The notes under the pieces are model-generated. The model was not told the origin of the DNA. It worked only from the letters and a program-made list of their open reading frames with translations, and made no database searches. Below are positions 3,683 to 47,271 of a stretch of 64,000 nucleotides of DNA, one piece after another. Source of the DNA: an uncultured Clostridium sp. GTDB taxonomy: Bacteria; Bacillota; Clostridia; Clostridiales; Clostridiaceae. The stretch covers positions 36,292 through 100,291 of the forward strand of contig CACZYK010000007.1 in assembly GCA_902785295.1 (NCBI GenBank), written 5' to 3'. How positions within the stretch are numbered: the first letter of the stretch is position 1; each line of letters begins with the position of its first letter. Made by a program: the position numbers and the translations under genes.

Positions 3683-3692
3683 CAAATAAATT

Positions 3693-5193: not shown

Positions 5194-6283
5194 AAATAAT
5201 ATTGCTGTAATTGGAATGGGTGGAGCAGGTAATAAGATGTTAGACGCTCTACTAGATATTAATAGAATATATACTCCAGTATATATGAATACAAGTACAC
5301 TAGAAATGGATAAATTAAAACATATTACAAGTAGAAATATGCTATATGTAACAAATGGAGAAGGAACTGGTAAAAACAAACAATATGCCAAAGAAGTTCT
5401 AAAAGACAACTACCCTAAAATATTAAGTTATTTTGCTGAGAAGTTTTCACCTGTTTCTGGAATAGATACGTTCTTCTTAATATGTGGTGCTTCTGGGGGA
5501 AGTGGGGGAACTATGCTTACTATGTTGCCTAAATTATTAAAGAAGATAAATGAAAATATTTCAATAAATGCTGTAGTTGCTATGCCAGATTTAGATGAAA
5601 AAGAAGATAGTTTAAGAAATGCTATACAAGTGTGGAAGGAATTAAATGAACTTCAGTCTAAGGGCTTTATAAATTCAGTACAGTTTATAGACAACAATAA
5701 AATGGGTAATGACCAAGAAGAATTTAATAAAGCAACAATGGAAAGTTTAGATGAATCATTATCAATTAATTATGATGAAATAGATTTGAATGATTCTAAG
5801 AAAGTAAACTGTGAAAATGGTTATAAAGTAGTATTAAATTTAAGTAAACATAGAGCAACAGTAAAAGACGCTGTAGATGAAGCTATTAAAGAAAGTAACT
5901 TTTTACTTCCTAATAATTTAGAATGTAATATTTTAATGGCTACTTTTGATGAAGATTATTATAATAAGAATGAATTAAAAGGTATATTTAAAGTATACGG
6001 AGATGAAAAATATGACTACAATATGGATGAAAGAAATGTAGTTGTATTAGGTGGAGTAGAGCAACCTGTTGATTATATGGAACTTTTACAAGGAGCTTTA
6101 GAAACAATTCAAACTAAACAATCTGCTAGAAATGAAAGAATGAGACATATGAATGAACAAATTAACTTTGCAGATAGTGGCAATGTAACAGTAGAGACTA
6201 AAGAAGTTCCTAAGCCAAAGAAAGCTAAAAGACTAACTAAAAAAGATTTGGCTAAAATAATGGAGGATGAAGATTTATGGTAA
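5186..6283 (+). CDS. tubZ: TubZ tubulin/FtsZ-like partition GTPase
   Basis: 365 residues. The nucleotide-binding T1 loop GMGGAGNK is at residues 10-17, and the glycine-rich tubulin signature appears as GASGGSGGTM near 101-110. The C-terminal tail is basic then acidic (KPKKAKRLTKKDLAKIMEDEDLW in part), the region that contacts TubR-DNA in other TubZ systems. TubZ polymers treadmill and pull TubR-bound plasmid DNA. The signature loop departs from the usual GGGTGSG, so this is a divergent member. A GGAGGAG site precedes the ATG, and a terminator directly follows the gene. Confidence 0.92.
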   Translation: MNKNNIAVIGMGGAGNKMLDALLDINRIYTPVYMNTSTLEMDKLKHITSRNMLYVTNGEGTGKNKQYAKEVLKDNYPKILSYFAEKFSPVSGIDTFFLICGASGGSGGTMLTMLPKLLKKINENISINAVVAMPDLDEKEDSLRNAIQVWKELNELQSKGFINSVQFIDNNKMGNDQEEFNKATMESLDESLSINYDEIDLNDSKKVNCENGYKVVLNLSKHRATVKDAVDEAIKESNFLLPNNLECNILMATFDEDYYNKNELKGIFKVYGDEKYDYNMDERNVVVLGGVEQPVDYMELLQGALETIQTKQSARNERMRHMNEQINFADSGNVTVETKEVPKPKKAKRLTKKDLAKIMEDEDLW

Positions 6284-6308
6284 TAGGATTCTTCCTATTA
6301 TCTTTTTT
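6281..6308 (+). terminator. tubRZ terminator
   Basis: TAATAGGA (6281-6288) and TCCTATTA (6293-6300) form an 8-bp stem with a 4-nt loop, followed by TCTTTTTT. The first arm includes the tubZ stop codon. Confidence 0.88.
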
Positions 6309-6310
6309 GA

Positions 6311-6358
6311 AAAATAATATAAAAAAGTGTTGACTTTTATAATTAGTCATGGTATACT
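6311..6358 (+). promoter_or_regulatory. Promoter with A-rich dispersed motif
   Basis: The dispersed motif AATAATATAAAAAAGT is followed by TTGACT (6330-6335), a 17-bp spacer and TATACT (6353-6358). A small hairpin GTAAG/CTTAC (6366-6379) starts the leader. Confidence 0.8.
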
Positions 6359-6406
6359 AATATTCGTAAGGTCGCTTACATATTTAAAAAAGGAGGTTTC
6401 AAGAGC

Positions 6407-6421
6407 ATGAGGGGTTATTGA
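6407..6421 (+). promoter_or_regulatory. Four-codon leader peptide MRGY
   Basis: AGGAGG (6391-6396), the strongest ribosome binding site nearby, precedes ATG AGG GGT TAT TGA. The real downstream gene starts at 6491 with its own site. A minimal open reading frame like this could attenuate or stabilise the transcript. A second copy of the A-rich motif lies at about 6450. Confidence 0.4.
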
Positions 6422-6490
6422 TTTAGATTTTAATTTAGGTTAGATTTGAAAATAATATAAAAAAGTAAAAAATAAACGGAGGAATAAAAA

Positions 6491-6928
6491 ATGAACAACA
6501 ATATATTTTATGAATTAAAAGAAAAGGAATTTAATGCAGATGAACAATATAGAGTAGTTATAAGTGGCTATGAAGAAGGAAATGATGGATGTTATATTTC
6601 AGATAATATAATAGATGAAAAACATTTTAACTTTATTTCACCAATACTAAGAGATATTTATGTAAATTATTACATAGGTTACATAGGTGAAAAAGATATT
6701 AAAGAACTTTATGCTAAGCATAACGATTGTGAACTTGATAAGTATTTAAAGGAACTAGGTTACAATGACAAGGAAAGACATATTTTAATTGAAGATTGTG
6801 AGTTAGATACAATTCTTCCTTATTTTCTTCAAAATTTTCTAGGTGAAGTAAATGTAGAACATCTTATTGAAATGAGAATTGAAAAGACAGAACCAAATGG
6901 TAAAATCTATGAAATTATATTTAAATAA
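6491..6928 (+). CDS. Unknown acidic phage protein
   Basis: 145 residues, acidic, with no recognised domain. It has CGGAGGA 8 bases before the ATG. It is the first gene of an accessory operon that runs to about 11.15 kb with short gaps. Confidence 0.8.
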   Translation: MNNNIFYELKEKEFNADEQYRVVISGYEEGNDGCYISDNIIDEKHFNFISPILRDIYVNYYIGYIGEKDIKELYAKHNDCELDKYLKELGYNDKERHILIEDCELDTILPYFLQNFLGEVNVEHLIEMRIEKTEPNGKIYEIIFK

Positions 6929-6940
6929 AAAGGAAATAGA

Positions 6941-7171
6941 GTGACAATGAAGATTTGGGAAGTATGTAAAAAAGAAAATATTAACAAACATTATTTAGAT
7001 AGTAATAATAATATGTGGAAAGTCATAAGTGTACCAGAAGATTCAGAAGAAACGGAGGAAGTAGAGTTGGTATCTATTACTGATGATTCTTTTATAAGTG
7101 ATTATTATTATGTAAGTGAGTTATTGAAACTAGAATTTAAGTTAACAAATAATAGGGGTGAAGAACAATGA
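6941..7171 (+). CDS. Small unknown protein, paralogue of the gene at 16961
   Basis: 76 residues. The GTG at 6941 is 6 bases from AGGA, but an ATG at 6947 gives MKIWEVCKKENINKHYLD, which aligns with MKAWEICNEKNIGKIYID of the gene at 16961. Either start is possible. These short acidic proteins are common in Clostridium phages and have no known function. It overlaps the next gene by 4 bases. Confidence 0.78.
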   Translation: MTMKIWEVCKKENINKHYLDSNNNMWKVISVPEDSEETEEVELVSITDDSFISDYYYVSELLKLEFKLTNNRGEEQ

Positions 7172-7716
7172 ATAAATATGAAGAATTAAAAAACAAGATA
7201 GATGAAGAAATTAAGTCAATTAAAGAACATGAATTAAAACTTAATGAACTAAAAGAAGAGATAGATAAAGCAGAGCAAGAAGAGAAGTGTAGTAATAAAA
7301 TGCTTTTTAAAATAGGAGAGGACTATTACTATATTTCTACTGCAGGGGAAATTGCTTTTGACGAATGGGATAATTATGAGATTGATATGTGGAGATTTAA
7401 TCAAGGAAATGCGTTTAAAACTGAAAAAGAAGCAGAAGATAAATTATTTCAATTAAGACTCGAGGGCAAGGCTAGAAAATTTAGAAGAATTAATAATTGT
7501 GATGTTACTGAAGAAGATTGGAGAAATACGAATAAAAACAAATATTATATTTATTATAGTTTAATTAGAGGTATTGCAACAGTTTCAAATAACCTTATTA
7601 TAAATCCAACAAAACTAGGATATTTTAGTTCTAAGGAAATAGCAGAGAAATTTGTAGAAGAAAACAAGGAAGATTTAATAAAATATTTTGATATTGAAAT
7701 GAAATTAAGTAAATAA
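7168..7716 (+). CDS. Unknown protein with N-terminal coiled coil
   Basis: 182 residues. Residues 1-45 form a charged heptad coiled coil (EELKNKIDEEIKSIKEH). The remainder is aromatic-rich and may hold two repeats of a domain ending in tissue such as FKTEKEAEDKL and FSSKEIAEKFV. The stop-start ATGA overlap with the previous gene indicates translational coupling. Function unknown. Confidence 0.8.
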   Translation: MNKYEELKNKIDEEIKSIKEHELKLNELKEEIDKAEQEEKCSNKMLFKIGEDYYYISTAGEIAFDEWDNYEIDMWRFNQGNAFKTEKEAEDKLFQLRLEGKARKFRRINNCDVTEEDWRNTNKNKYYIYYSLIRGIATVSNNLIINPTKLGYFSSKEIAEKFVEENKEDLIKYFDIEMKLSK

Positions 7717-7728
7717 AGGGTGATGAAT

Positions 7729-8364
7729 GTGACAGAATTATTAAATTTAAAAAAAGGTGAATTACTGAATCTTAAAAAAGATAGTTTTAAAAAATTAAAT
7801 ATAGGATTAGGTTGGGATATAACAAATGGAAGAACATATGACATAGATGGCTTTGTTTTATGTTTTGACAATTCTGACAATTATTTAGGAAAAGTATATT
7901 ATGGCAAATTGTCTCTTTTTGGTATTAATCATTTAGGAGATAATTTAACTGGCGAAGGAGATGGAGATGACGAAACTCTTCAAATAGATTTAGAACAGCT
8001 AGATAGTCGAGTAAAAAAGATTAGAGTATTTGCTAATATCTTTTCTGCTGGTGGTCGTACATTTAATGAAATAGATAATGCTTTCATTAGACTATATAAC
8101 CCATTAAACAACGAAGAGCTTGCGATATATAATTTATCAGAAAAGAACAGAAACTTTAATGCTTTTCATTTTGCAGACCTAGATATTGTAAATGATGAAA
8201 TTAAATTTTCTATAGTTGCAGAAGGTCTTAATGGAAGCATAAAGGAAATTGTTGATTCTTATGTAAAAAATATTAAGAATAATAATTCACAAAATAATAC
8301 AGAGTTACAAAGAAAACCTAAAAAGAAGAGTATCTTTAAAAAAATGATGGATTTCTTTGCATAA
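7729..8364 (+). CDS. TerD-family stress protein
   Basis: About 211 residues. The TerD fold is visible in GLGWDITNGRTYDIDGF, then GDNLTGEGDGDDETLQIDL, VKKIRVFANIF and FNEIDNAFIRLYN. The acidic stretch NLTGEGDGDDE is the calcium-binding type motif of TerD/TerE proteins. A 45-residue basic tail follows. TerD proteins act in tellurite, phage and membrane stress responses, and phage-borne copies are of unsettled role. GTG at 7729 has an ideal GGGTGAT site; upstream GTG 7720 and ATG 7723 are possible but too close to it. Confidence 0.88.
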   Translation: MTELLNLKKGELLNLKKDSFKKLNIGLGWDITNGRTYDIDGFVLCFDNSDNYLGKVYYGKLSLFGINHLGDNLTGEGDGDDETLQIDLEQLDSRVKKIRVFANIFSAGGRTFNEIDNAFIRLYNPLNNEELAIYNLSEKNRNFNAFHFADLDIVNDEIKFSIVAEGLNGSIKEIVDSYVKNIKNNNSQNNTELQRKPKKKSIFKKMMDFFA

Positions 8365-8413
8365 AAAATAGATAAATAATATAAAAAAGTAATAAATTAA
8401 AAGGAATGGTTAT

Positions 8414-8986
8414 ATGACTTTAAATGATTTAAAAGGGAAAGGAATTAAAAAGGCTGTTATTATAATGGTAGACTTAGACTCTACCATTATAGATACTAGC
8501 CAAACAATAATAAATTTATATAACAAGTACAACCCCAATAATAAGATAAAATACACTGAGAATCATAATTGGAACTTTGAGCCTATGATAAAAACTAAAG
8601 AAGAATTGAGTGAGTTATTCAAATTGTTTGATAGTGAACATTTTTATGATGAAGTAATATTTAAAGAAAATGCTTTAGAAGTAGTTCATGACTTATGTGA
8701 AAAATATAAAGTAATTATTTGCACCAAGCACAATGAAAGTAGGAAACCTATAACAAGTAAGTTTATAAAACGAATGTTTCCTAAAGCTGAATTGAAGTTT
8801 GTAGATAATTTTTCAGACAAAGGAAAGATAGAGTGTGATGTTGCTATAGATGACAAACCAGAGAGCTTAAATAGTTTTAATGATACTGTACTTAAAATTT
8901 GTTTTGGGGATTATGTTTGGAACAAAAGTTGGGATGGTGTTAAAATGGTCAGTTGGTTAGAGATTAAAGAATTTTTTAATAATTAA
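8414..8986 (+). CDS. HAD-superfamily 5'-nucleotidase (NT5C type)
   Basis: 190 residues. HAD motif I is DLDST (nucleophile Asp, then the acid/base Asp). Motif III is the Lys in SNKGKIE-like FSDKGKIE. Motif IV is DVAIDDK. Size and spacing fit the 5'(3')-deoxyribonucleotidase family, which dephosphorylates nucleoside monophosphates. In phages these enzymes adjust nucleotide pools. The A-rich motif at 8375-8390 precedes the gene without a clear -35. Confidence 0.85.
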   Translation: MTLNDLKGKGIKKAVIIMVDLDSTIIDTSQTIINLYNKYNPNNKIKYTENHNWNFEPMIKTKEELSELFKLFDSEHFYDEVIFKENALEVVHDLCEKYKVIICTKHNESRKPITSKFIKRMFPKAELKFVDNFSDKGKIECDVAIDDKPESLNSFNDTVLKICFGDYVWNKSWDGVKMVSWLEIKEFFNN

Positions 8987-13632: not shown

Positions 13633-14193
13633 TTGCAAATTACCAGACCTACTTTAACTAAATATGTAAAAGAAGGATTAATAGAAGTAACTACTCTTCC
13701 AAACGGAAGATATGATTATAGCAAAGAGTCAGTTTATAAAATTTTTAATAAGGGTGTTCAACGTAAAACTTACATTTATGCAAGAGTTTCAACAACAAAA
13801 CAAAAGAAAGATTTAGAAAATCAAATAGATATGCTTAAACAATTTTGTTTTTCTAATGGATATGAGGTTTCTAAAGTTTATTCTGATATAGCTAGTGGAA
13901 TAAGTTTTGAAAAAAGAAAAGATTTCTTTAAAATGTTAGATGATATAATGTCTGGAAAGGTTGAAAGGGTTGTTATCTCTTGCAAAGATAGGCTTTCAAG
14001 AGTTGGATATGAGTTATTTTATTATTTATTTAAGAAATACAACTGTGAAATTATAGTTATGAGTGAAGTTGGTTCTGAAAAATTAGACAGTGAAGAAATT
14101 TTTGAAGAAATAATTAGTTTATTGCATTGCTATAGTATGAGGCTATATAGTAAGAGAAAAGGACAAAAAATAAAAGAAATTTTAAAAGAATGA
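13633..14193 (+). CDS. tnpA: IS607-type serine recombinase (TnpA), start uncertain
   Basis: 186 residues from the TTG at 13633. The resolvase core reads YARVSTTKQKKDLENQ with the catalytic Ser, then VVISCKDRLSRVGYELF. The helix-turn-helix begins upstream: in the same frame 13606-13632 encode IKAKEVLEL, which completes the expected N-terminal helix. That extension is preceded by ATG TAA at 13600-13605, a stop straight after the natural-looking start. So either ATA at 13606 or TTG at 13633 is used, or the gene is inactivated at codon 2. Confidence 0.8.
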   Translation: MQITRPTLTKYVKEGLIEVTTLPNGRYDYSKESVYKIFNKGVQRKTYIYARVSTTKQKKDLENQIDMLKQFCFSNGYEVSKVYSDIASGISFEKRKDFFKMLDDIMSGKVERVVISCKDRLSRVGYELFYYLFKKYNCEIIVMSEVGSEKLDSEEIFEEIISLLHCYSMRLYSKRKGQKIKEILKE

Positions 14194-14209
14194 GGGGGTG
14201 ATTGTAGCA

Positions 14210-15430
14210 ATGGATAATGAAGCAACTAGAGTAGAAAAACATATTATAAAATCAAATAATAAATATTATAAAATATTAGACGAATATTGTTTTAAATCTA
14301 AAAATCTATATAATTTTGCAAATTACCATATTAGAAAGACTTTTATTGATACAGGGGAATGGCTTAAATATAATAAACTTGATAAAATGTTAAAGCAAAA
14401 AGACATGGATTTTGATTATAGAAATATGCCAACTGCTCAATCATCTCAACAATGTTTAAAACTATTAGATAAGAATTGGAAATCATTTTTCAAAAGTATT
14501 AAAGATTGGGTTAAGCATAAAGATAAATACAGTGGTAGACCTAAATTGCCAAAATATTTAAAGAAGAATGGAAGAAATATTCTAATATTAACTAATCAAA
14601 ATTGTAAATTAAAAAACAACATAATAAATTTCCCTAAAACTTTTAATGGTTTTACATTAAAGACTAAAGCTAATAATATTCAGCAAGTTAGAATGTTATC
14701 AAGAAACAAACATATTGTAATAGAAGTAGTATATAAGATTAATATAAAAGACAAAATAAAAGACAATAATAAATATGTATCAATAGATATTGGATTGGAT
14801 AATTTAGCAACATTAACTAACAATTGTAATATACAACCAGTTATAATTAATGGCAGAAAAATAAAATCAATTAATAAGTATTACAACAAAGAACTATCTC
14901 ATTATAGAGAAATTGCTAAAAGAGTTAACAATTTAGATTATACAAATAGAATGAACAGATTAACAATCAAAAGAAATAATATTATTAGTGATTTAATTCA
15001 CAAAGCAAGTAAAAGTATAATAGAATATACTTTAAGCTGTGGAGCAAATACAATAATCATAGGAAATAATAAAGATTGGAAAAGGAATAGTTCTATGAGT
15101 AAAAAAGTTAATCAAAGTTTTGTATGTATTCCACATCAAGATTTAATTGATAAAATAACATATAAGGCTGAAAATATAGGATTAAATGTCATTGTAACCG
15201 AAGAATCTTATACAAGTGGAACATCCTTTTTGGATAACGAGTTACCTATAAAAGAAAACTACAAAAAAGAAAGAAGAATTTTTAGAGGATTGTTTAAAAC
15301 AAACAAAGGAAGATTAATAAATGCTGACGTAAATGGTTCTCTGCAAATAATGAAAAAAGTATTCTCAAATGCCTTTGATGGTTATGAGATAGAGGGGTTA
15401 GGGTTAACTCCAATTAAAGTAGGTTTATAA
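14210..15430 (+). CDS. tnpB: TnpB RNA-guided nuclease with rearranged RuvC site
   Basis: 406 residues. RuvC-I Asp is in SIDIGLDNLATL and RuvC-III Asp is in NADVNGSLQI. At the usual RuvC-II position (IVIEDL in typical TnpB) the sequence is IIIGNNKDWK, with no Glu. A candidate replacement Glu lies later in VTEESYTSGTSF. The four-cysteine zinc finger is also absent. TnpB proteins with a relocated RuvC-II Glu are a known group. Start ATG 14210 has GAGGGGGTGAT upstream. Confidence 0.88.
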   Translation: MDNEATRVEKHIIKSNNKYYKILDEYCFKSKNLYNFANYHIRKTFIDTGEWLKYNKLDKMLKQKDMDFDYRNMPTAQSSQQCLKLLDKNWKSFFKSIKDWVKHKDKYSGRPKLPKYLKKNGRNILILTNQNCKLKNNIINFPKTFNGFTLKTKANNIQQVRMLSRNKHIVIEVVYKINIKDKIKDNNKYVSIDIGLDNLATLTNNCNIQPVIINGRKIKSINKYYNKELSHYREIAKRVNNLDYTNRMNRLTIKRNNIISDLIHKASKSIIEYTLSCGANTIIIGNNKDWKRNSSMSKKVNQSFVCIPHQDLIDKITYKAENIGLNVIVTEESYTSGTSFLDNELPIKENYKKERRIFRGLFKTNKGRLINADVNGSLQIMKKVFSNAFDGYEIEGLGLTPIKVGL

Positions 15431-15585
15431 TTTATTTATAAACTGATTAATAAATAAAATTTATTAAAATACTGAAGATTTTTTAATATTTTTAATGAAT
15501 TTTATAACCTGAGTAGAATGTGGGAACAAGCGATAAATAAAATAAAACAGTAATAAACAGTAACAAGAAAGGAATGAGTGTAAGA

Positions 15586-16020
15586 ATGGAATTAAAAGAA
15601 ATTAGTAAAGAAGAGTTAAAAAGAAAATTAGAACTTCATAGAAAATGGTTAAATGACGAAGAAGGAGGAGTTAAATTAGATTTAAGAAATACTAATTTAA
15701 AAGGTGCTGATTTAAGTGATTCTGATTTAAGTTATGCTAATTTATATGAAGCTGATTTAAGTAAAACAGAGTTCTATTCAACAAACTTATATAAAACAAA
15801 AGGTAATTTTGTTGGAGTAGAAAACATAGGCTCAAGAAATAACACAACACACTATTTTTATAATGATAATAGAATTATATGTGGTTGTTTTGATGGTACT
15901 ATGGAAGAATTTAAAAATGAGGTAAAAGAAACTTATGAAGAAAACAGTAAAGAATATAAGCAATATATGATTGCTATTGATACTTTAAAAAAATTAGCTG
16001 AATTGGAAGGTGAGAAGTAA
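15586..16020 (+). CDS. Pentapeptide-repeat protein (short)
   Basis: 144 residues. Residues 1-30 (EISKEELKRKLELHRKWLN) match the N-terminus of the protein at 50935. The A(D/N)Lxx repeats cover about residues 36-72 and form a right-handed beta-helix. The C-terminus is different from that of its paralogue. Homology to the paralogue supports ATG 15586 rather than ATG 15574, which abuts the AAAGGA. Role unknown. Confidence 0.82.
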   Translation: MELKEISKEELKRKLELHRKWLNDEEGGVKLDLRNTNLKGADLSDSDLSYANLYEADLSKTEFYSTNLYKTKGNFVGVENIGSRNNTTHYFYNDNRIICGCFDGTMEEFKNEVKETYEENSKEYKQYMIAIDTLKKLAELEGEK

Positions 16021-24488: not shown

Positions 24489-24517
24489 TTGACACCAAAA
24501 AGAAAACTTGTTATAAT
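24489..24517 (+). promoter_or_regulatory. Promoter of the boxA leader
   Basis: TTGACA (24489-24494), 17-bp spacer, TATAAT (24512-24517); both hexamers perfect. Confidence 0.88.
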
Positions 24518-24820: not shown

Positions 24821-25405
24821 ATGAGAAAAACAATATTATTAGGAGTTAATGGAAGACAAATATATACAGGTGAATTTGAAATCAGAACACTTTGTCAAGG
24901 TGGAAAATACTTTTCAGCCTCTTTCAATATTGGTTTTGCTTTTGACATAAATAATACCGACAGTTGGGCAGAGGATTATTTTGAAGAATTGTGGAATAAT
25001 TCTGATGACGAAAGAAAATTAGAAATGTTGCAAGATGGAGACATAACCAAAGAAGAAGCAAGAAATAATTTTATCAATGATACTTACTATTATAGTGGGT
25101 ACAGAGCGTTTATTGATTGCTCTTGCACAGATTTTGAAGTTGATATGCCTAATGGTGATACCATCAACTTTGAAACTGAAAGTTGTGGTCAATGTGACAT
25201 TAGAAAACAGCCTAATTTTAAGAATACAGTATTCACAAATAAAGAAGCTGTATTCAAGTTACTTGAGTTTTGGGATAATTTTCATTTGAAAGAAATTTCA
25301 AAAGCTCAAGAAGAAGAAATTAATAATCTTCTTAATGAACTAGCTCCTTTTGAAGAGTGGGGAACTAAATTTGAAGACTTCATAAGTGACAATGTTAGAC
25401 TTTAA
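24821..25405 (+). CDS. Unknown protein of clostridial mobile elements
   Basis: 194 residues with mixed acidic and aromatic composition and several cysteines (DCSCTDFEV, ESCGQCD). AAAAGGTGGTAAT sets ATG 24821 as the start, rather than the GTG at 24809 within that site. No domain recognised. Its transcript runs toward the hammerhead-like ribozyme. Confidence 0.8.
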   Translation: MRKTILLGVNGRQIYTGEFEIRTLCQGGKYFSASFNIGFAFDINNTDSWAEDYFEELWNNSDDERKLEMLQDGDITKEEARNNFINDTYYYSGYRAFIDCSCTDFEVDMPNGDTINFETESCGQCDIRKQPNFKNTVFTNKEAVFKLLEFWDNFHLKEISKAQEEEINNLLNELAPFEEWGTKFEDFISDNVRL

Positions 25406-25427
25406 CTCTTGCAAATAATATAAAAAA

Positions 25428-25491
25428 GTCGAAACTAGCGTATTATTTACGCTAGTCCATGCAAGATGACAACTTGTATGCTGATGAAGAC
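25428..25491 (+). ncRNA. Hammerhead-like self-cleaving ribozyme (type II order)
   Basis: Elements appear in hammerhead order. GAA (25431-25433) follows GTC. Stem III is ACTAGCGTA/TACGCTAGT (25434-25442, 25448-25456), a perfect 9 bp. The cleavage base C25457 closes GUC. Stem I is CATGCAAG/CTTGTATG (25458-25465, 25473-25480) with one G-U pair. CTGATGA follows at 25481-25487. Stem II is open and short: GAC 25489-25491 with GTC 25428-25430, after one extra A at 25488. The extra base and the weak stem II are the doubtful points. It lies in the 5' leader of the gene at 25530. Confidence 0.7.
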
Positions 25492-25529
25492 AAGTCAAGA
25501 AAAATAATATAAATAAGGTGGTTGATAAT

Positions 25530-25805
25530 ATGAAAGACTTAGAAAAAATAATAAGTCTTAAAAGCTGTGAAAAAATTCTTTCACTAGCTTGTAAAAACGA
25601 TTATGAGATAGAACAGTTTGAAGGTGGCTTATTGGATAGCTATTTAATAAGCGATAACACAACTATTTCTATTAATAGGGCTAAGCCTAGAAGGTTTATA
25701 GCTATATTAGATGAATATGTCAATGAATGGACTAGTCAATTAAGACTGGTTCAAACAGACAACGAGGAAAAAATTAATGATATAAGAAAGATGTTAACAC
25801 GTTAG
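25530..25805 (+). CDS. Small unknown gene flanked by two ribozymes
   Basis: 91 residues beginning MKDLEKIISLKSCEKILS. AAGGTGGTTGATAAT sets the ATG at 25530. No domain recognised; predicted mixed alpha/beta. Its stop codon lies in the pseudoknot loop of the pistol ribozyme that follows, and a hammerhead-like ribozyme lies 38 bases before its start. Self-cleavage at both would release a short monocistronic RNA. Confidence 0.8.
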   Translation: MKDLEKIISLKSCEKILSLACKNDYEIEQFEGGLLDSYLISDNTTISINRAKPRRFIAILDEYVNEWTSQLRLVQTDNEEKINDIRKMLTR

Positions 25806-25877
25806 GGCGTGTATAAATAGAGCCTCAAGCCCTAAGCGTTATGACGATAGAAAAAAAATAATATCGTCATAGGTGGC
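25797..25877 (+). ncRNA. Pistol self-cleaving ribozyme
   Basis: All pistol elements are present with correct spacing. P1 is ACACG/CGTGT (25797-25801, 25808-25812) around the loop TTAGGG. Then come ATAAATAG (25813-25820), six variable bases, and AAGCCCTAAGCG (25827-25838), in which CCCTAA pairs with the loop as the pseudoknot. P3 is TATGACGAT/ATCGTCATA (25840-25848, 25863-25871). The conserved AGGTG follows at 25871-25875 and contains the expected G-U cleavage step. Cleavage of this copy has not been tested. Confidence 0.92.
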
Positions 25878-25950
25878 TAATGCCAAAAATATAATATAAA
25901 GAAGGGTGAAAAACAGTTAATAAAAACTTATAAAAAGTTATAAATTAGTG

Positions 25951-25979
25951 TTGACTTTTATAACTTTTGAATATAGAAT
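25951..25979 (+). promoter_or_regulatory. Promoter within the IS607 left end
   Basis: TTGACT (25951-25956), 17-bp spacer, TAGAAT (25974-25979), 20 bases ahead of tnpA. Confidence 0.7.
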
Positions 25980-25998: not shown

Positions 25999-26634
25999 AT
26001 GAGTAAATATTATTCTATAAATGAATTTTCAAAAATATTAGGAGTTTCAGCACAAACATTAAGAAACTGGGATAAAAACAACAAATTAAAACCACATCAT
26101 ACTTCTTCTAATGGTTATAGATATTATTCTCACGAACAATTAAATAAAGTAATGAATTTAAATCCAACACTAGATAGAAAAGTTATTGGATATTGTAGGG
26201 TATCTAGTCATAAACAAAAAGATGATTTAGAAAGACAAATAGAAAATATGAGGATGTATTTATTATCTCAAGGAAAACCATTTGAAATAATTAATGATAT
26301 AGGCAGTGGTATTAATTATAAAAAGAAAGGCTTAAGACAATTGTTAAAACTTATAACTCAAAATAAAGTTGAAAAAGTCGTGGTATTATACAAAGATAGA
26401 CTTTTAAGATTTGGTTTTGAATTAATTGAGTATATTGCAAGTTTATATAATTGTGAAATAGAAATAATTGATACTACTAAGAAGTCAGAACAGCAAGAAT
26501 TAGTTGAGGATTTAGTTCAAATAATAACAGTATTTAGTTGTAAATTACAAGGAAAACGAGCAAATAAAGCTAGAAAAATGGTTAAAGAATTAATAGAAGA
26601 AGGTGAAAATGATGATAAAGACATTAAAGATTAA
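25999..26634 (+). CDS. tnpA: IS607-type serine recombinase (TnpA)
   Basis: 211 residues. MerR-like helix-turn-helix at residues 5-60 (YYSINEFSKILGVSAQTLRNW). The resolvase domain starts GYCRVSSHKQKDDLERQ with the catalytic Ser and continues VVVLYKDRLLRFGFELI. GAGGTGATAGTTA precedes the ATG. The C-terminus overlaps the tnpB start. Looks intact. Confidence 0.93.
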   Translation: MSKYYSINEFSKILGVSAQTLRNWDKNNKLKPHHTSSNGYRYYSHEQLNKVMNLNPTLDRKVIGYCRVSSHKQKDDLERQIENMRMYLLSQGKPFEIINDIGSGINYKKKGLRQLLKLITQNKVEKVVVLYKDRLLRFGFELIEYIASLYNCEIEIIDTTKKSEQQELVEDLVQIITVFSCKLQGKRANKARKMVKELIEEGENDDKDIKD

Positions 26635-27659
26635 ACTAAAACCCAATAACAAACAAAAGACAAAAATGTTTCAAAATTATAAAAATGGTGGTAAGTTTAT
26701 TCAAGATAATATTTTAAGAAAAGAATTTACACAATTAAAAAAACAAGAAGAATATAAATGGCTATATTCAATAAGTAACAATGTTACTAAACAAGCTATT
26801 AAAGATGCTTGTTTGTCTTATAAAAGATTTTTTAAAGGACAAACTAAATTTCCTAAATTCAAAAGTAAAAAATTTGATAGACCAAGTTTTTATGTAGATA
26901 ATATAAAAATTAAATTTACAAGTACACATGTTAAATTAGAGATTAAATTGGATTAGACTTTGTGAAAAGAATAAAATTCCAACTAATTGTAAATATATAA
27001 ACCCACATGTAGTTTTTGATGGCATAGATTGGTTTATATGTGTTGGTATTGAATATGTTGATAATACAGAAATACCAAATAACAAAGGTATAGGAATAGA
27101 TTTAGGTGTCAAAGATTTAGCAATATGTTCTGATAAAAATACTTATAAAAATATAAACAAAACACACAAAATAAAAAAATTAGAAAAAATAAAACGTAGG
27201 TTGCAACGTAAAATAAGTAGAAAATACTTAAATAATAAGAAAGGAGATAGTTACTATAAAACAAGCAACATTATAAATCATAGACTAACTAATATCAGAG
27301 ATAATTATTTACATCAAACCACTTCTAAAATAATAAAACGAAAACCAAGTTTTATTGTAATAGAAGATCTAAATGTGAAAGGTATGATGAAGAATAAACA
27401 TTTATCTAAAGCAATTCAACAACAAAAGTTTTATGAGTTTCGTAGGCAATTAGAATATAAATGTAAATGGAACAATATAGAACTAAGAATTGTTGATAGA
27501 TTCTATCCTTCAAGTAAAATATGCCATTGTTGTGGCTCTATAAAAAAAGATTTAAAACTTAAAGATAGAATTTATAAATGTGATTGTGGTTATATTGAAG
27601 ATAGAGATTATAATGCAAGTCTTAATTTAAGAGATTGCAAAACTTATAATATAGCATAA
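26609..27659 (+). pseudogene. tnpB: TnpB, frameshifted
   Basis: The first frame runs to TAG 26954 (KTLKIKLKPNNKQKTKMF...). The protein resumes one frame over at about 26943 (NWIRLCEKNKIPTNC...) and continues to 27659. The second part has the RuvC-I Asp in IGIDLGVKDLAI, RuvC-II Glu in IVIEDLNVKG, a CxxC...CxC zinc finger (CHCCGS, CDCG) and the RuvC-III Asp in DRDYNASLNL. So this is a canonical TnpB, unlike the one at 14210, broken by a single indel of the +1 or -2 type. Confidence 0.88.
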
Positions 27660-27847
27660 ACAAGCATTTATAAGTATGTACGGATAGTTAGTTCGGAATT
27701 TACGCCTTTGGAGTATTATATCAAATGTGAGTAGTTTTAGGTTACTATTACAAAAACAGATACGTTGAAGAAGGAAATAAACATAAAAGTTAAATTTATA
27801 ACTTTTTATAAGTTTTATGTAACGGTTGAAATGAAGCAGAAAAAGAA

Positions 27848-34698: not shown

Positions 34699-35412
34699 AT
34701 GAACGTTTATGAATTAACAGTAAAGATTTATTTATTAAATAATATGAAAGTAAACCATATAGGTTATCATATAGGAAATTTTATCAATGGAGCAATGAAA
34801 AAAGATAAAAACTTATCTAAATTACATAACAGAAACAACTTGAAGCACTACTGTTTTTCAGAACTATATCCAATAGAAGAAGGATTTATGTATAATCAAA
34901 ACGGAGTTTATACTTTTAGCATACGTTCTGCTGATTTAGATTTGATTATGAAGTTTGATAAGGTATTGCAAGGGGCTAAGGATAATAATTTCATAGTTAT
35001 TACAATGAACCATAGTGAAGTACCAATGAAAAAAATTAAAGGCATAAGAACAATAATGCCTGTAATATGTACGGTTAGAGAAAATGAAAAGTTTAGAAGT
35101 TTAACAATAAACAAAGATGGAGAAGAAGCCATTAAAGAAAAAATATTTTACAATCTTAACTATAAATATAAGAAGTTAAATAATGTTAATTTGACAACTT
35201 CTTTTGATAGTGTGTTTGAGAATATTATTATCAAACCAAAGGTAAAATACATTTACTATAAAAACATAATGTTCTTAGGATATAAAGCTATCCTATATTT
35301 TAAAGACAATTCACTTGCTCAAGATTTTGCAAGAATAGCTTTAGCTGAAGGAGTAGGTGAGAAAAACAGTTCTTGTGGTGCTGGATTTGGGCAGGTGATG
35401 AGGTATTGTTAA
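34699..35412 (+). CDS. cas6: Cas6 CRISPR RNA endoribonuclease
   Basis: 237 residues. Two RAMP-type halves end in the glycine-rich loop GVGEKNSSCGAGFG near the C-terminus, diagnostic of Cas6. His24 (near IGYHIGNF) is a candidate general base. Cas6 cuts within CRISPR repeats to make guide RNAs. AGGAAGGAGGAAAG precedes the ATG. It overlaps cas8b. Confidence 0.9.
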   Translation: MNVYELTVKIYLLNNMKVNHIGYHIGNFINGAMKKDKNLSKLHNRNNLKHYCFSELYPIEEGFMYNQNGVYTFSIRSADLDLIMKFDKVLQGAKDNNFIVITMNHSEVPMKKIKGIRTIMPVICTVRENEKFRSLTINKDGEEAIKEKIFYNLNYKYKKLNNVNLTTSFDSVFENIIIKPKVKYIYYKNIMFLGYKAILYFKDNSLAQDFARIALAEGVGEKNSSCGAGFGQVMRYC

Positions 35413-37034
35413 AAGAATTAATTGAAAACATAGGATATGATAACATATTAAACTACTTAGAGAACAATTTTAATTTAGGCGACTGTGTTTGTGTTAGACT
35501 AGAAAAAAATTCTAATGAATTGAAAGAAGATAACATTTTAATACTAGACAAAAAGCAAAAGGAAGAACTACCAAAGGAAAAAATAGTTCTTATGAAGTGG
35601 TTTCAATCAAGAGCTTTTTATTCAACATATTTAAATAGTAATAAAGCAATTGTTTGTAAAGGTGATTCTACAAAGCTAGTAGTTAGTTGTGTTAAAGACA
35701 ATATAACTTTTAACTACAATACTTTTCTAGCTAAAGCTAAAAAGACAATAGGTTCAGACAATGAGTTTGCTTTAATAGACATGTTTAACATTACAGTTAA
35801 TGAATATTTTAACAATCTAGTTAAGGTTGATTCAGATGTAAATGTGGAAAAATATATAAAAATATTTAAAGGATATTCAAGCGTAATATTAGATACTTTA
35901 AAAGGAATAGAAGGTATAGAAAATAAAAAGGTTAGACTTTTTATTGACGAAGATTTAGAAGTTTATAAACAAGATAATATTTCATATCTTAACAAAAAAA
36001 TTTTTGATAGTGGAACAGAGAAAAAAATTAATAATATTTTAGTTGGTAGATACGGAGGATTTTTAACTTTAAATTCAAATAAGCCACTATTAAAATTGCA
36101 TGGATTAGATGAAATAAATTTATGTACTAAAGAAGAAGCAATAGAATATAGAAACCTTTTGTTGTATTTAGGAAACAATAGAGAAAAAATTAATGGTTTA
36201 TATGGAGGGGAAATAAAAGTTAATTTTAATCCAAAAGACCAGCAAGTAGAAAATTTTGATATTATTCCTTTTGAAGTAGATAGAGAAGAAGAAAATTTAA
36301 TTGAATATAAAAATATTCTACATTTAAAAAATTTTACTGAGGAAAAAATTAATATTGTTAATAAAATTAATTTCTTACTTGATGGTTATTTATATAAACA
36401 AGGATTTGGTAAATATGATAATTTTTGTTTCTTGTATAAGGACGCTATTGAGAAGTTTGTACACGAACAAAATACTCAAAAGTTAATTAATGTAGCAAAG
36501 AAAATAACAAGTCAATTAATTAGTTTAAATTTACATAGTGATAATCAATATAAAATGCAAGATGTTATTAACTTTAATCTTAACTTATTAGATAGTGTTT
36601 TGGGAGAAAAAAATAAGGAGTTGATGGACTATATGTATGAAAAAATCTTTGAAAAGATAAAGAACTATAGAGAAGAATTTATAATAGAAAATGATGAAGA
36701 ATTTGTATTTTTAGCTGGTCAAATGGCTTATTTTTTAGTATCAAAAAGTAAAGCTCAAGTTTTAACAAATAAATTATTAACTAAATACATTAAGGTAAAA
36801 AAGCTAAGTAGGATAAAAGAAATGTTAGCTATAGATTTTAATACTTATAGCTATGATGAAAGTCTATTCAGTAGAATCAATAAAATATTTGCTGGATTAA
36901 TGAACTATGATATTAAATCAGATGTGATAAACGACAAAGAAAAAAATATCTTTTTAGGTTCTTTGTTTGGAGAAAATTTATTGTATAAAAGTACTAAAAA
37001 TAAGGGGAGTGAAGTAAATGAAGAAGAAAAATAA
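35406..37034 (+). CDS. cas8b: Cas8b-like large subunit of a type I-B Cascade
   Basis: 542 residues from TTG 35406, which has AGGTGATGAGG upstream and overlaps the end of cas6 by 7 bases. Called by position between cas6 and cas7 and by size; the sequence is divergent (IVLMKWFQSRAFYSTYLNSNKAIVCKGDS in part). Large subunits recognise the PAM and dock Cas3. No nuclease motif seen. It overlaps cas7 by 17 bases. Confidence 0.8.
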   Translation: MLKELIENIGYDNILNYLENNFNLGDCVCVRLEKNSNELKEDNILILDKKQKEELPKEKIVLMKWFQSRAFYSTYLNSNKAIVCKGDSTKLVVSCVKDNITFNYNTFLAKAKKTIGSDNEFALIDMFNITVNEYFNNLVKVDSDVNVEKYIKIFKGYSSVILDTLKGIEGIENKKVRLFIDEDLEVYKQDNISYLNKKIFDSGTEKKINNILVGRYGGFLTLNSNKPLLKLHGLDEINLCTKEEAIEYRNLLLYLGNNREKINGLYGGEIKVNFNPKDQQVENFDIIPFEVDREEENLIEYKNILHLKNFTEEKINIVNKINFLLDGYLYKQGFGKYDNFCFLYKDAIEKFVHEQNTQKLINVAKKITSQLISLNLHSDNQYKMQDVINFNLNLLDSVLGEKNKELMDYMYEKIFEKIKNYREEFIIENDEEFVFLAGQMAYFLVSKSKAQVLTNKLLTKYIKVKKLSRIKEMLAIDFNTYSYDESLFSRINKIFAGLMNYDIKSDVINDKEKNIFLGSLFGENLLYKSTKNKGSEVNEEEK

Positions 37035-37944
37035 CGTTTATGGAATAATAGGAGTAGGTGTTAAAAATGCTAATTATAATGCAGGGTTTGATAGATACCC
37101 TAAGAGAACAGCAGAAGGTGAACTATACGCTACTCCTCAATGTTTAGAATATATGATAAGAACTCAATTAGAAAAAGAAGGAGAATTAATACTATATAGA
37201 AAAAGTTATAATGAAGATGGAAGCGTTAGAGATTTAAAAAATAGATATGAAAATCTTTTTGATACAAAAGACGATAAGAAAAATTCATCTGAAACAAAAG
37301 CTAATGTTTTTAAAACTTTAGATGTAAGACTGTTTGGAGCTGTTTATACTGGAGCTTCTACTTTTGGAGTTACTGGAGCAGTACAAATAGGTTTTGGAAT
37401 TAACAAATATGAGAACACGAATATAGAAAGTGAAATTATTCTATCACCCTTTGCAAGTGCAGAAGGGAAAAATGCAAATACTTTAGGAACTCAAATTTTC
37501 ACAGATAAGGCTCACTATTTACATTCTTTTACTTTCAATGCTAACGCATATAATAACATTAACATTGAAAATTTTGAAGGGGTTACAGAAGAAGATTTCA
37601 ATTCATTTAAAAATGCAAGTTTAATAGCAGTTTCTAATTGTAACAGTAAAGCAAAAACAGGTTGTCAAAATGAGTTTGCTATGTTTGTAGAAACAGTAGA
37701 TGATATTAATACTTTGAATTTAAATGGATTAGGGGATTATGTTACAATATCAGATAATGAAAATAATCCTAATATTATTAACTATAACTTAGAAAATATA
37801 TTTGAAGTGTTAAATAGTCTTAAAGAAAAAATTAAGTTAATAGAGATTTATTATAATCCATATACTTTGAATTTAAGTGGGGTGGATAATAGTTTTAAGA
37901 ACTGTACTTTATACAATATTTTAACAAGAGAAGTGATTAAGTAA
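37018..37944 (+). CDS. cas7: Cas7 (Cst2/DevR family) backbone subunit
   Basis: 308 residues. N-terminus VYGIIGVGVKNANYNAGFDRYPKR and the later GASTFGVTGAVQIGFGI and SLIAVSNCNSKAKTGCQNEFAMF in parts are typical of the Cst2/DevR type of Cas7. Several copies coat the guide RNA in Cascade. Its stop overlaps the cas5 start. Confidence 0.9.
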   Translation: MKKKNNVYGIIGVGVKNANYNAGFDRYPKRTAEGELYATPQCLEYMIRTQLEKEGELILYRKSYNEDGSVRDLKNRYENLFDTKDDKKNSSETKANVFKTLDVRLFGAVYTGASTFGVTGAVQIGFGINKYENTNIESEIILSPFASAEGKNANTLGTQIFTDKAHYLHSFTFNANAYNNINIENFEGVTEEDFNSFKNASLIAVSNCNSKAKTGCQNEFAMFVETVDDINTLNLNGLGDYVTISDNENNPNIINYNLENIFEVLNSLKEKIKLIEIYYNPYTLNLSGVDNSFKNCTLYNILTREVIK

Positions 37945-38666
37945 TGGAAGTTTTGAGTTTTGTTTTAAAAGGGCGAATGGCTCATTTTAAAAATCCAGAG
38001 AACAATTTAAATGTAGAGTTGACTTATAGTAATATACATAAACCTGCATTATTGGGATTATTGGGGGCAGTGATAGGGCTAAAAGGGAGAAATCAATATA
38101 AGGAACTAGGATATATTGAATATTATAAAGAGCTTAAAGACTTAGAAATTGCTATTGTACCTCATAAACCTTATTGGAATAAGTTTATAGATGAATTAAC
38201 TAATACTACAGGGTTTGCTAACAAACAATTTAATCAAATAATAAAAAGGCAATATTTAGAAAATGTGAGTTGGAATATTTACATTAGACAAAATACTGTC
38301 AAAGATGAGTTGTGGCAAACATTAAAATTTAATTTATTAAATGGAATAAGTTACTATCATATTTCTCTAGGCGGTAGAAAAAACACAGCTAGAATAGAAA
38401 GAGTAGAAATTTTAGAAGATAAAAAGATTGACAAAATAGATTATTGTGATAGTATCATAAAATTTAAAAATGTCAATAATATTTTTAAAGATACAATTTC
38501 AGATAGTTGGGGAAAAGCTTTTTGCTTAAAAGAAAATATGCCTGTTGGCTTAGAAGGAAATACATTGTATAATAAAGAAGACTTGATATTTACATCTAAT
38601 AAGTTGATTTTTAAACAGGACGTGGATATTTATAAGGTGAAAAATAATTATGTTTCTTATATGTAA
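37944..38666 (+). CDS. cas5: Cas5 (Cas5t type) subunit
   Basis: 240 residues. The N-terminal LSFVLKGRMAHFKNPEN and IHKPALLGLLGAVIGLKG is the Cas5 signature region, which grips the 5' handle of the guide RNA. The CRISPR array starts 120 bases further on, in the same direction. Confidence 0.9.
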   Translation: MEVLSFVLKGRMAHFKNPENNLNVELTYSNIHKPALLGLLGAVIGLKGRNQYKELGYIEYYKELKDLEIAIVPHKPYWNKFIDELTNTTGFANKQFNQIIKRQYLENVSWNIYIRQNTVKDELWQTLKFNLLNGISYYHISLGGRKNTARIERVEILEDKKIDKIDYCDSIIKFKNVNNIFKDTISDSWGKAFCLKENMPVGLEGNTLYNKEDLIFTSNKLIFKQDVDIYKVKNNYVSYM

Positions 38667-38786
38667 TTATATATATTGGTAAAGAGAATTAATTTTTCCA
38701 AGTAGAAAATATAAAATGGCTGGTAAAAGTGGTCGAAAGTCTGTGTTTGTCACAAAAGAAAATTTAAGATTTAACCAATAGCTAAG
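38667..38786 (+). promoter_or_regulatory. CRISPR leader
   Basis: 120 bases between cas5 and the first repeat. No obvious -35/-10 pair was found, so the array may be read through from the cas operon. Confidence 0.5.
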
Positions 38787-39403
38787 GTTGAGGTCCTACA
38801 ATGTAAGTTTTTAAATTATACGTAGCTTAGTGGTCGCGTCTTTTTTGTGTTTGTTGAGGTTCTACAATGTAAGTTTTTAAATAAGCTACGTATTGTATAA
38901 TAGCACCTAGCCTAGTTGTTGAGGTTTTACAACACAAGTTTTTAAATTTTATGTAGGTTTAAACTGGTCATGAAAAGTCATAAAGCTAAGGTTCTACAAT
39001 ATAAGTTTTTAAATATGTCTTTTAAAGTTGTTTCTATTACAAATTCTCGGGTTAAAGCTCCACAATATAAGTTTTTAAAGCCTTCTTTTAACGCCCTAAA
39101 AAAGTTAGGTTCTAAGTTGAAGTTCCACAATATAAGTTTTTAAATTTATCAAAAATTACTTTGAATTTAGTTTGAGAAGCGTTGAGGTTTTACAATATAA
39201 GTTTTTAAATATAATAAACGGTACAATAAAAGAGTAAAAAGACAGTTGAGGTTCTACAATATGAGTTTTTAAATATAATAACGATTGGACAATAACTTTC
39301 TATTTTTAGTTGAAGTTCCACAATATAAGTTTTTAAAGTTTTGTAACGCATTAGACAGGTGTAAAATACAAAAGTTAAGGTTCTACGATATGAGTTTTTA
39401 AAG
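38787..39403 (+). CRISPR. CRISPR array: 10 degenerate 30-nt repeats, 9 spacers of 34-37 nt
   Basis: Consensus begins GTTGAGGTTCTACAATATAA and ends GTTTTTAAAT. Repeats start at 38787, 38853, 38918, 38985, 39051, 39116, 39181, 39245, 39309 and 39374. Nearly every repeat differs from the next at 1-5 positions (for example GCTAAGG, GTTAAAG, GTTGAAG starts; CAATGT, CAATAT, GATATG cores). Such decay across the whole array fits long absence of spacer acquisition. No cas1, cas2 or cas3 lies nearby. Confidence 0.95.
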
Positions 39404-39430
39404 GATATTATTAAAGAAGGAAAAGTTTCA

Positions 39431-45933: not shown

Positions 45934-47271
45934 ATGAAAGTATATTCATCTTATAAAGTAAAAATTAAACATTATAACAATATTTTTAAACAAACAGTTG
46001 AGATATATAGAAATGCAGTATCCTTCTTTATAGATGTTTGTGATAAAGAATGGGATACATTAAAACCATTAAAAAATCTGGAAAGATGTAGTAAAATTGA
46101 AAAATTAACAATCCAAACAAAGAAAAACCAAAACCCTAAATATGATTTTAATGAAAGATTTTATAAAATGCCAGTGTATTTTAGACGTTCAGCGATAAAT
46201 ACTGCAATAGGTTGCTATTCTTCATATTATTCTAATTTAAAGAATTGGGAAGCAAATCCTATTGATAAGAAACCTACGTTACAATTAGATAGAAATGTAA
46301 TGCCTACATTCTATAAAGGTAACACTTATATTCGTACAGATAGCAATACAGCAAGAATTAAGATTTTTCATAAAAATGATTGGGTTTGGTTAGATGTAGA
46401 ATTAAATAATCGAGATGTAAAATATATTCAAAAACATTGCAAGTTTAAAAAAGAATATGTTCCTACGTTAAAGAAACAAGGAAAATGTTGGTATTTAGTA
46501 TTTCCATTTTCTGATGATATAAAACTTCAAAAAGTAGATATTAAAGAGCAACTTATTTGTGCAGTTGATTTAGGATTAAATAATAATGCAACTTGTTCAA
46601 TAATGCAGAGTAATGGAACTGTCGTTGGAAGAAAATTTATCAATCTTAGAACAGAAAAAGACCATTTATACAAATCATTGAACAGAGTTAAGAAAGCACA
46701 ACAAAATGGTGCAAGAAAATGTCCTACTCTTTGGAAACACGTAAATGATTTAAATACAGATGTTAGTAGAAAAACAGCAAAAGAGATTATAGACTTTGCA
46801 GTTTTATACAATGTAGATGTAATTGTATTTGAATACTTGGATACACAAGGCAAGAAAAAAGGTAAAGGTAAACAGAAACTTGCACTTTGGAGAAAACAAG
46901 AAATACAAAGACTTGTAGAACATAAAGCACATATATTAGGAATTAGAATTAGTAGAATTTGTGCTTGGAATACAAGCAGATTAGCATTTGATGGTTCTGG
47001 AAAGGTCGAAAGAGGTACTTATATTCAGAATGGCAAAGAAAAATATAATTACTCTATTTGCACTTTTCAAAATGGCAAACAATATCATTGCGATTTAAAT
47101 GCAACTTATAATATTGGAGCAAGATATTTTATAAGAGAACTTTTAAAATCCAACTCAGTGATGAGAAGGTTGCCTAATCAGACAAAAGATTCTGATTATG
47201 GTACGGGAACAACACGCACCTTGTCTACGTTAATTAGACTTAATGCAGATTTATGTGGTGTATCTGCATAA
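45934..47271 (+). CDS. tnpB: TnpB RNA-guided nuclease (IS605 type)
   Basis: 445 residues. RuvC-I is AVDLGLNNNAT, RuvC-II is VIVFEYLDTQG, RuvC-III is CDLNATYNIGARY; Asp, Glu and Asp are all present. The usual zinc-finger cysteines are missing (ICAWNTSRLAFDGSG in that place). AAAAGGAGGATATTTT precedes the ATG. The 3' sequence to the right end (47272-47355) should encode the omega RNA. Confidence 0.92.
   Translation: MKVYSSYKVKIKHYNNIFKQTVEIYRNAVSFFIDVCDKEWDTLKPLKNLERCSKIEKLTIQTKKNQNPKYDFNERFYKMPVYFRRSAINTAIGCYSSYYSNLKNWEANPIDKKPTLQLDRNVMPTFYKGNTYIRTDSNTARIKIFHKNDWVWLDVELNNRDVKYIQKHCKFKKEYVPTLKKQGKCWYLVFPFSDDIKLQKVDIKEQLICAVDLGLNNNATCSIMQSNGTVVGRKFINLRTEKDHLYKSLNRVKKAQQNGARKCPTLWKHVNDLNTDVSRKTAKEIIDFAVLYNVDVIVFEYLDTQGKKKGKGKQKLALWRKQEIQRLVEHKAHILGIRISRICAWNTSRLAFDGSGKVERGTYIQNGKEKYNYSICTFQNGKQYHCDLNATYNIGARYFIRELLKSNSVMRRLPNQTKDSDYGTGTTRTLSTLIRLNADLCGVSA

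Follow-up and report, generated by a model that had tools for sequence, protein, structure and literature searches.

Type II hammerhead ribozymes with a pseudoknot were described in 2011 in clusters that flank single prophage genes, and the function proposed for them was the cutting of long phage transcripts into single-gene mRNAs (PMC3088659). Three tandem hammerhead arrangements were shown to cleave in vitro, and one in E. coli (PMC3088659). The pistol class, whose first report is a 2015 paper as cited in PMC4604425, turned up in searches around genes with which other ribozymes are associated. Pistols lie near phage-related genes, prevalently in Firmicutes and in environmental samples (PMC4604425), a context that a first-pass annotation of the present sequence rendered rather loosely as "clostridial mobile DNA". 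In B. subtilis, the 5'-hydroxyl product of the self-cleaving glmS RNA is degraded by RNase J1 (PMC3328962).

Here we describe a locus where one small gene is bracketed by ribozymes of two different classes. The first-pass annotation had proposed such a bracket, and it stands: an Rfam pistol lies on the downstream side and a hammerhead scoring 59.0 bits on the upstream side.

The locus and its setting

The window, that is the whole stretch of 64,000 nucleotides that was analyzed, covers positions 36292-100291 of a 100,291-base contig belonging to a 3.2 Mb genome. By its gene content the contig looks like a phage-plasmid: ten large proteins encoded in its first 36 kb include a portal protein and members of other phage families. 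A Rep3 initiator and a tubulin-like protein (window 2349-6283) fit a phage-plasmid with its own partition filament; relatives of the tubulin-like protein occur in 15 of 67 genomes of the genus, its own included, and none was found in phage records at E 1e-10. The window also holds a phage-borne CRISPR-like locus (34699-39405), type I by eye, with Cas6 and Cas7 by Pfam, two adjoining genes that have no Pfam match, and an array (38781-39405) of 10 degenerate repeats spaced by 64-67 nt; neither Cas1 nor Cas2 nor Cas3 was noticed. Downstream of the bracket lies an IS607-type element (25999-27776), serine recombinase included, with a TnpB-like frame in two pieces by eye (26603-26956 and 27201-27659) and a RAGATH-18 RNA at 27705-27776 (75.7 bits); RAGATH-18 is the guide RNA of IS607 TnpB (PMC11061315). 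Further TnpA/TnpB-like frames can be seen by eye in the list of open reading frames, at 13633-15430 and 45934-47271. The only relative of the locus found at the DNA level is one phage, whose match (25898-25979) covers what by eye is the left portion of the IS607-type element, and none was found in plasmids.

The features of the locus, in window coordinates and all on the + strand, are as follows:

24489..24517 (+): sigma-70-type promoter-like site, TTGACA-17-TATAAT, 12 of 12, with TG before the second hexamer; a consensus match only, which may drive the unit
24821..25405 (+): upstream gene, open frame of 194 codons from ATG, stop TAA 25403-25405
25426..25501 (+): type II hammerhead ribozyme with its 3' tail (59.0 bits, covariance model of 60 viral hammerheads)
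25428-25430 (+): hammerhead stem II strand GUC (descriptor)
25431-25434 (+): hammerhead GAAA (descriptor)
25435-25442/25448-25455 (+): hammerhead stem III, 8 pairs (descriptor and fold)
25431..25455 (+): GAAA and stem III hairpin, would-be 3' end of the upstream mRNA (fold)
25456-25457 (+): hammerhead U25456 C25457, the UH ahead of the cut (sequence)
25457..25458 (+): predicted hammerhead cleavage site after C25457 (UC between stems III and I; predicted from the family)
25458..25480 (+): hammerhead stem I hairpin (25458-25465/25473-25480), loop AUGACAA, would-be first bases of the released mRNA
25481-25487 (+): hammerhead CUGAUGA (descriptor)
25488..25491 (+): extra A25488, then the stem II partner GAC 25489-25491 (alignment to the A1 model)
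ending at 25498 (+): hammerhead tail AAGUCAA, whose GUCA (25494-25497) can pair with UGAC in loop I
25515..25521 (+): likely ribosome-binding site AAGGUGG, 8 nt before ATG 25530 (sequence)
25530..25805 (+): bracketed gene, 91 codons, stop UAG 25803-25805 inside the pistol
25797..25878 (+): pistol ribozyme (Rfam RF02679, 60.7 bits, cut-off 34.5, E 1.4e-8 for the window)
25797-25801/25808-25812 (+): pistol P1 (Rfam alignment)
25802-25807 with 25830-25835 (+): pistol pseudoknot, UUAGGG with CCCUAA (Rfam alignment)
25812-25820 (+): pistol UAUAAAUAG (Rfam alignment)
25821-25824/25875-25878 (+): pistol P2 (Rfam alignment)
25840-25849/25862-25871 (+): pistol P3 hairpin, 10 pairs, near the would-be 3' end of the released mRNA (Rfam alignment and fold)
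25873..25874 (+): predicted pistol cleavage site, G/U joining P3 and P2 (RF02679 alignment and PMC4604425)

The product of the bracketed gene matches phrog_26789, a family of unknown function (E 4.2e-5), and has no Pfam match. Distant relatives were found in 46 phage records (E <= 1), mostly of Bacillus and Staphylococcus, and also in plasmids, several being annotated as JAB-domain or RadC proteins; none was confirmed in viral contigs. Four phage loci that carry such relatives contained no pistol and no hammerhead in the 5.2 kb examined (2.5 kb on either side), which means that this gene's family does not always carry the bracket. The upstream gene has no family match over the cut-off and no match in phage records; its stop codon lies 22 nt ahead of stem II of the hammerhead, a looser spacing than usual.

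The window contains 47 promoter-like sites against 37.9 +/- 7.4 in shuffled sequences, little above chance. Four of those on the + strand, between 23251 and 24517, have TG before the second hexamer (10, 11, 11 and 12 of 12). Between 24761 and 28168, no terminator-like site was found on the + strand, consensus matches being all that was searched. Given this and the 12-of-12 promoter-like site, all four parts from the upstream gene to the pistol are likely to be co-transcribed.

The pistol ribozyme

The downstream RNA exceeds the cut-off of the Rfam pistol model and scores 50.8 bits with R2, a pistol model built without the window. P1, the pseudoknot, P3 and the GU cleavage site are all as the first-pass annotation had described them, and the stop codon that it placed in the pistol loop does lie there, within one strand of the pseudoknot. 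Covariation in P1 and in the pseudoknot is seen among 35 relatives (alignment A2, 35 of 38 pistols). This is the only pistol found in the genome. Within the genus, 2 of 68 genomes have a pistol; for the family the figure is 2 of 206, and the two genomes are the same. In the predicted fold, a weak hairpin (UGGC/GCCA) stands at the new 5' end that the pistol cut would leave.

The hammerhead ribozyme

Judged from sequence and predicted fold, the upstream RNA is a type II hammerhead. It reads GUC-GAAA-[stem III]-UC/cut-[stem I]-CUGAUGA-A-GAC, the type II order, and all the core elements (CUGANGA, GAAA and the UH before the cut) are present. Stems III and I are closed by loops, with 9 pairs (A25434-U25456 counted) and 8 pairs in the minimum free energy fold, whereas stem II is open and consists of the three pairs GUC/GAC after a one-base insertion. 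The fold of the 81-nt RNA has a z of -4.0, none of 200 shuffles being equally stable. Descriptor and fold thus agree with the two cores, the two perfect hairpins and the cleavage site at C25457 named in the first-pass annotation, which did not mention two further features, the insertion before stem II and the possible UGAC/GUCA pseudoknot, of four pairs, between loop I and the tail. In the window this is the single match of a strict descriptor that covers the three hammerhead types. In 1545 random windows of 64 kb, which were first-order Markov sequences and not exact shuffles, the type II descriptor with hairpins of at least 4 pairs matched 140 times, with hairpins of 5/6 pairs or more 6 times, and with 8/8 or more never; counted in the same way, the hairpins found here are 8/8. 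On the - strand, at 25432-25458, stem III followed by a T run forms an intrinsic-terminator-like site for antisense transcripts.

The first-pass annotation had suggested a covariance search with the Rfam models, and its outcome was divided. The pistol model gave the match listed above, but none of the Rfam hammerhead families matched the window at E <= 10. The type II model, RF02276, had no match at E <= 10 over the whole genome and hence none at its cut-off. In control genomes it matched in 10 of 14, never over the cut-off, and in 200 genomes of the family it gave no match at E 0.001, a result that does not speak for absence, since the controls were equally silent.

Relatives were collected from viral contigs with patterns that fixed the core and a 3-bp stem II, one of them shaped on the insertion seen here, and that left free the bases before GUC/GCC, the pairing of the stems, the loop and the tail. 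These scans gave at least 354 hammerhead loci, the first found rather than a random sample. A descriptor count over 423 loci, the window's own copy excluded, yielded at least 595 type II sites, reduced to 446 with unique cores, hairpins of at least 5 pairs and a 3-bp stem II. A covariance model built on alignment A1 (60 of 80 candidate hammerheads, relatives with the insertion; window left out) gives the hammerhead 59.0 bits, a score owed partly to the core by which the training sequences were found, while the contribution of stems, loop and tail is independent of that selection. Its E-value is 3.5e-14, a rough figure, and it is the sole match in the 3.2 Mb genome at E 1.

In alignment A1, 90.3% of the cells at paired positions hold standard pairs, against 61.6% in shuffles and 28.9-40.4% when the alignment is slid, and 349 cells are changed on both sides, against 110.6 in shuffles. 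Two-sided changes affect 18 of the 21 pairs, a count that is weak by itself since shuffles give 16.7 and 14 of 500 reach as high. The pseudoknot between loop I and the tail is paired in 82.5% of cases among the 60 relatives, with two-sided changes at all four pairs. Among the 446 unique sites, for the matches listed, the longest loop-tail complement is mostly 4-6 bases, and 2-3 when tails are swapped. One viral locus (L288) shares with the window the loop and loop-closing bases, AAGAUGACAACUUG, as well as the tail start AAGUCA. The insertion itself is a common form: in the set of at least 595 sites, stem II is flush to CUGAUGA in 384, one base intervenes in 189, and 22 have other forms. Among the 189 sites listed the extra base is T in 179, A in 7 and C in 3, the window having the A form. 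Several one-base-insertion sites, in L217 and L263, score over the Rfam cut-off.

Mixed brackets and arrays in other viral contigs

Model R2 detected pistols in 4 of the 354 hammerhead loci listed (L177, L278, L394 and L406), and hammerheads were found with model R1 in 2 of 51 pistol loci (L016 and L043), the search having taken 51 of 63 such loci and left out 12, mostly near-duplicates. The mix is therefore rare: with the window there are seven mixed loci, and in all seven the two ribozymes lie on the same strand. A single gene separates them in five. L177 has the order seen here, hammerhead, 89-codon gene and pistol, the stop UAA lying within the pistol's UAUAAACA, and in L406 a 61-codon gene has a hammerhead before it and a pistol after it. 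L043 and L394 show the reverse order, pistol, gene, hammerhead. Several open reading frames separate the ribozymes of L278, and in L016 the gap is about 1.45 kb. Compared by eye, the bracketed genes of the window, L177, L406 and L043 differ. The mixed bracket is thus rare yet recurrent, with different genes inside.

Pistols suggested by regular expressions in L078, L197, L239, L247, L265, L323, L352 and L382 were unconfirmed by R2 and were not used. A partial Rfam pistol match elsewhere in L197 (35.6 bits) was missed by R2 and is excluded from the mixed count.

Arrays of one class are commoner than mixed ones. Two or more pistols occur in 7 of the 63 pistol loci (L006, L012, L021, L030, L033, L039 and L046; five of them also by Rfam), and up to 9 hammerheads per locus were seen among the matches listed. 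In L019 a pistol and a type-P5 twister lie on the same strand, 1.9 kb apart. Two of the viral contigs carry other structured RNAs of note: L018 has a phage tRNA gene cluster (6108-8497) with a pistol inside it (7008-7070), and L024 has a run of three group I intron matches on its - strand (14734-15735).

For 248 of the 446 hammerheads listed, another hammerhead lies on the same strand within 1.5 kb, and for none does one lie on the opposite strand. The median of the 168 gaps between hammerheads, among the matches listed, is 466 nt; in 87 of these 168 the longest sense open reading frame takes up 60% of the gap or more, as the longest antisense one does in 13.

Placement on stop codons

The position of the ribozymes relative to genes was measured with mechanical tests on open reading frames, which are not gene calls. 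For pistols, a sense frame of at least 40 codons had to end between -10 and +16 nt from P1, and for hammerheads the stop of such a frame was sought in the same interval around stem II. The pistol set comprised 59 sites (72 less 13 duplicates) and includes the window's own, whereas the hammerhead set is without the window; related contigs were only partly removed from these counts. Sites too near locus ends were left out, namely 30 of 446 hammerheads, and 1 of 59 pistols in the stop test and 3 of 59 in the start test.

Pistols lie at the end of a frame in 36 of 58 cases, against 4.8 at random places and 2 on the antisense strand, and a frame begins within 45 nt after the pistol in 27 of 56 (8.2 expected). 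Among the hammerhead matches listed, 336 of 416 lie at a stop, against 44.5 at random places and 65 on the antisense strand; since the antisense figure exceeds the random one, a small part of the stop signal may be due to composition. A frame starts after the hammerhead in 234 of those listed, where 80.3 are expected. When one hammerhead is taken per locus, again among the matches listed, a stop is nearby in 199 of 242. In the commonest single arrangement, seen in 55 of the loci listed, stem II begins with the G of a UAG stop. Stops built into the ribozymes do not readily explain this placement: with frames taken at random, no more than a third of genes could use them, and the observed stops end no later than the first base of the ribozyme.

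How the bracket may work

The two ribozymes probably act as RNA punctuation in a phage operon, their cleavage releasing a single-gene mRNA. We infer cleavage at this locus, together with the RNA ends, their stability and the coupling to translation, in the following way. RNA polymerase would start near 24.5 kb and transcribe the upstream gene, then the hammerhead, then the bracketed gene and finally the pistol. During transcription, and without protein, the hammerhead would cut after C25457 and the pistol after G25873, giving three separate mRNAs. The middle one would be a 416-nt RNA carrying the 91-codon gene, with a 5'-hydroxyl start and a 2',3'-cyclic phosphate end: a 72-nt leader that begins with stem I and includes AAGGUGG, the frame from ATG 25530 to UAG 25805, and a tail. 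It would open with the 8 pairs of stem I and close two bases past the 10 pairs of P3, while the upstream message would finish with stem III of the hammerhead. On geometrical grounds, type II is the one permutation of the hammerhead whose two products each keep a hairpin at the cut, and the pistol leaves one on its upstream product only, so that the message here would be capped by hairpins on both sides. These hairpins may take the place of ordinary terminators and leaders and may shield the pieces; from one promoter, each gene would then have its own message and its own dose. With the stop codon in the pistol pseudoknot, a ribosome that terminates there should sit over P1 and hold back folding, which would tie cutting to finished translation.

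Several observations support this punctuation reading: the pistol is over the Rfam cut-off, and models that exclude the window still match each ribozyme; mixed brackets recur, arrays keep to one strand and ribozymes sit on stop codons; and tandem hammerheads are known to cleave (PMC3088659). Against it stand the Rfam miss of the hammerhead, the rare extra A and the 22-nt gap to the upstream stop, as well as the decay precedent of glmS, the ribozyme-free loci of the gene's relatives, the rarity of the mix and the near-chance number of promoter-like sites.

A broader proposal, which we regard as possible and put forward tentatively, is that phages use a class-blind stop code in which the stop codon and a self-cleaving RNA are fused, so that translation would end and the mRNA 3' end would form at one site. 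Any fast ribozyme would suffice, be it a type II hammerhead, a pistol or perhaps a twister, hence the existence of mixed brackets; and the use of type II in arrays would be explained by the hairpins it leaves at both new ends. Ribosomes at the stop would gate the cut, and a message would be released once translated.

Alternative explanations

Cleavage could have the opposite effect to mRNA maturation and work as an off-switch, feeding 5'-hydroxyl pieces to RNase J1 and lowering the dose of an accessory gene unless translation or some factor blocks ribozyme folding. The fate of glmS RNA in B. subtilis (PMC3328962) is a precedent, and stop codons in or beside the ribozymes would allow ribosomes to block folding. 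However, the first base of a type II product begins a closed hairpin, and the many units per phage, up to 9 hammerheads per locus among those listed, are odd for mere destruction; we consider this explanation unlikely. It is very unlikely that the pistol works alone beside a hammerhead that is a decayed relic. The extra base, the weak 3-bp stem II, the Rfam miss and the rarity of the A insertion (7 of the 595 sites listed) would suit a relic, but the core bases, both hairpins and the 4-bp loop-tail complement are intact, phage hammerheads often have one base inserted here (189 of the 595 listed), and several sites with such an insertion, in L217 and L263, pass the Rfam cut-off.

Least probable of all is a mobile cassette, in which hammerhead, gene and pistol would move together, perhaps by way of a circular RNA made by joining the 5'-hydroxyl and cyclic-phosphate ends. 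Plant retrozymes, which carry ribozymes, spread through circular RNAs (PMC4918200), and the recombinase gene of the IS607-type element begins about 120 nt downstream of the bracket. The gene found between the ribozymes nevertheless differs, by eye, among the window, L177, L406 and L043; all four fetched loci with relatives of the window's gene are free of pistol and hammerhead; arrays on one strand that abut stop codons are what punctuation would give; and circular or spliced products were undetected in the experiments reported in PMC3088659. No reverse transcriptase was noticed either.

Comparison with known systems

Self-cleavage of an mRNA to give 5'-hydroxyl and cyclic phosphate ends, as predicted here, is a property of glmS, but cleavage of glmS is stimulated by glucosamine-6-phosphate and its outcome is decay (PMC3328962). 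The theta ribozymes of gut phages likewise are self-cleaving RNAs in phage genomes; they differ in having an HDV-like fold and a tRNA context and in not punctuating mRNA (PMC10879173). With the pistol class as defined by RF02679 and PMC4604425, the downstream ribozyme shares all the helices, the pseudoknot, the GU cleavage site and the phage neighborhood. The context described for the class in PMC4604425 does not feature a pistol and a hammerhead around one gene, the pair present here.

The closest likeness is to the prophage hammerhead clusters (PMC3088659), which are also type II with a pseudoknot between loop I and the tail, surround single genes or short blocks and have the same proposed function. 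Ribozymes around one gene in a phage are found here too, on a contig that carries a portal protein. Whereas hammerheads stand on both sides in those cases, the 3' ribozyme here is a pistol. The words "stop codon" occur 0 times in the main text of PMC3088659, so that the placement is not described there in those words. Among the matches listed from the open-licence literature (titles and starts of abstracts), none dealt with mixed brackets or stop-codon placement, which is weak evidence of novelty.

The release of a small mRNA, suggested in the first-pass annotation, is thus partly supported: a 416-nt message is the best reading of the recurrence and of the placement, and the idea, plausible as it is, is not new in outline, having been proposed in 2011 for arrays of one class (PMC3088659). 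Less expected are the mixing of two ribozyme classes and the finding that, in the other viruses examined, ribozymes lie mostly at gene stops. Their placement at stop codons, on the coding strand and between small genes, has now been quantified. The use of two unrelated folds in the same slot points to selection for a cut at that place and not for a particular fold. To our knowledge, the purpose of the self-cleaving ribozymes of phages is unproven; the single-gene-mRNA hypothesis is now testable by RNA end mapping. If it is true, some phages form their mRNA ends by RNA alone, where bacteria use terminators and RNases. The arrangement itself is real and well supported, with two conserved ribozyme structures on the same strand, one gene between them, recurrence in other contigs and placement at stop codons, and it is a mixed-class version of a known arrangement, whose function we infer.
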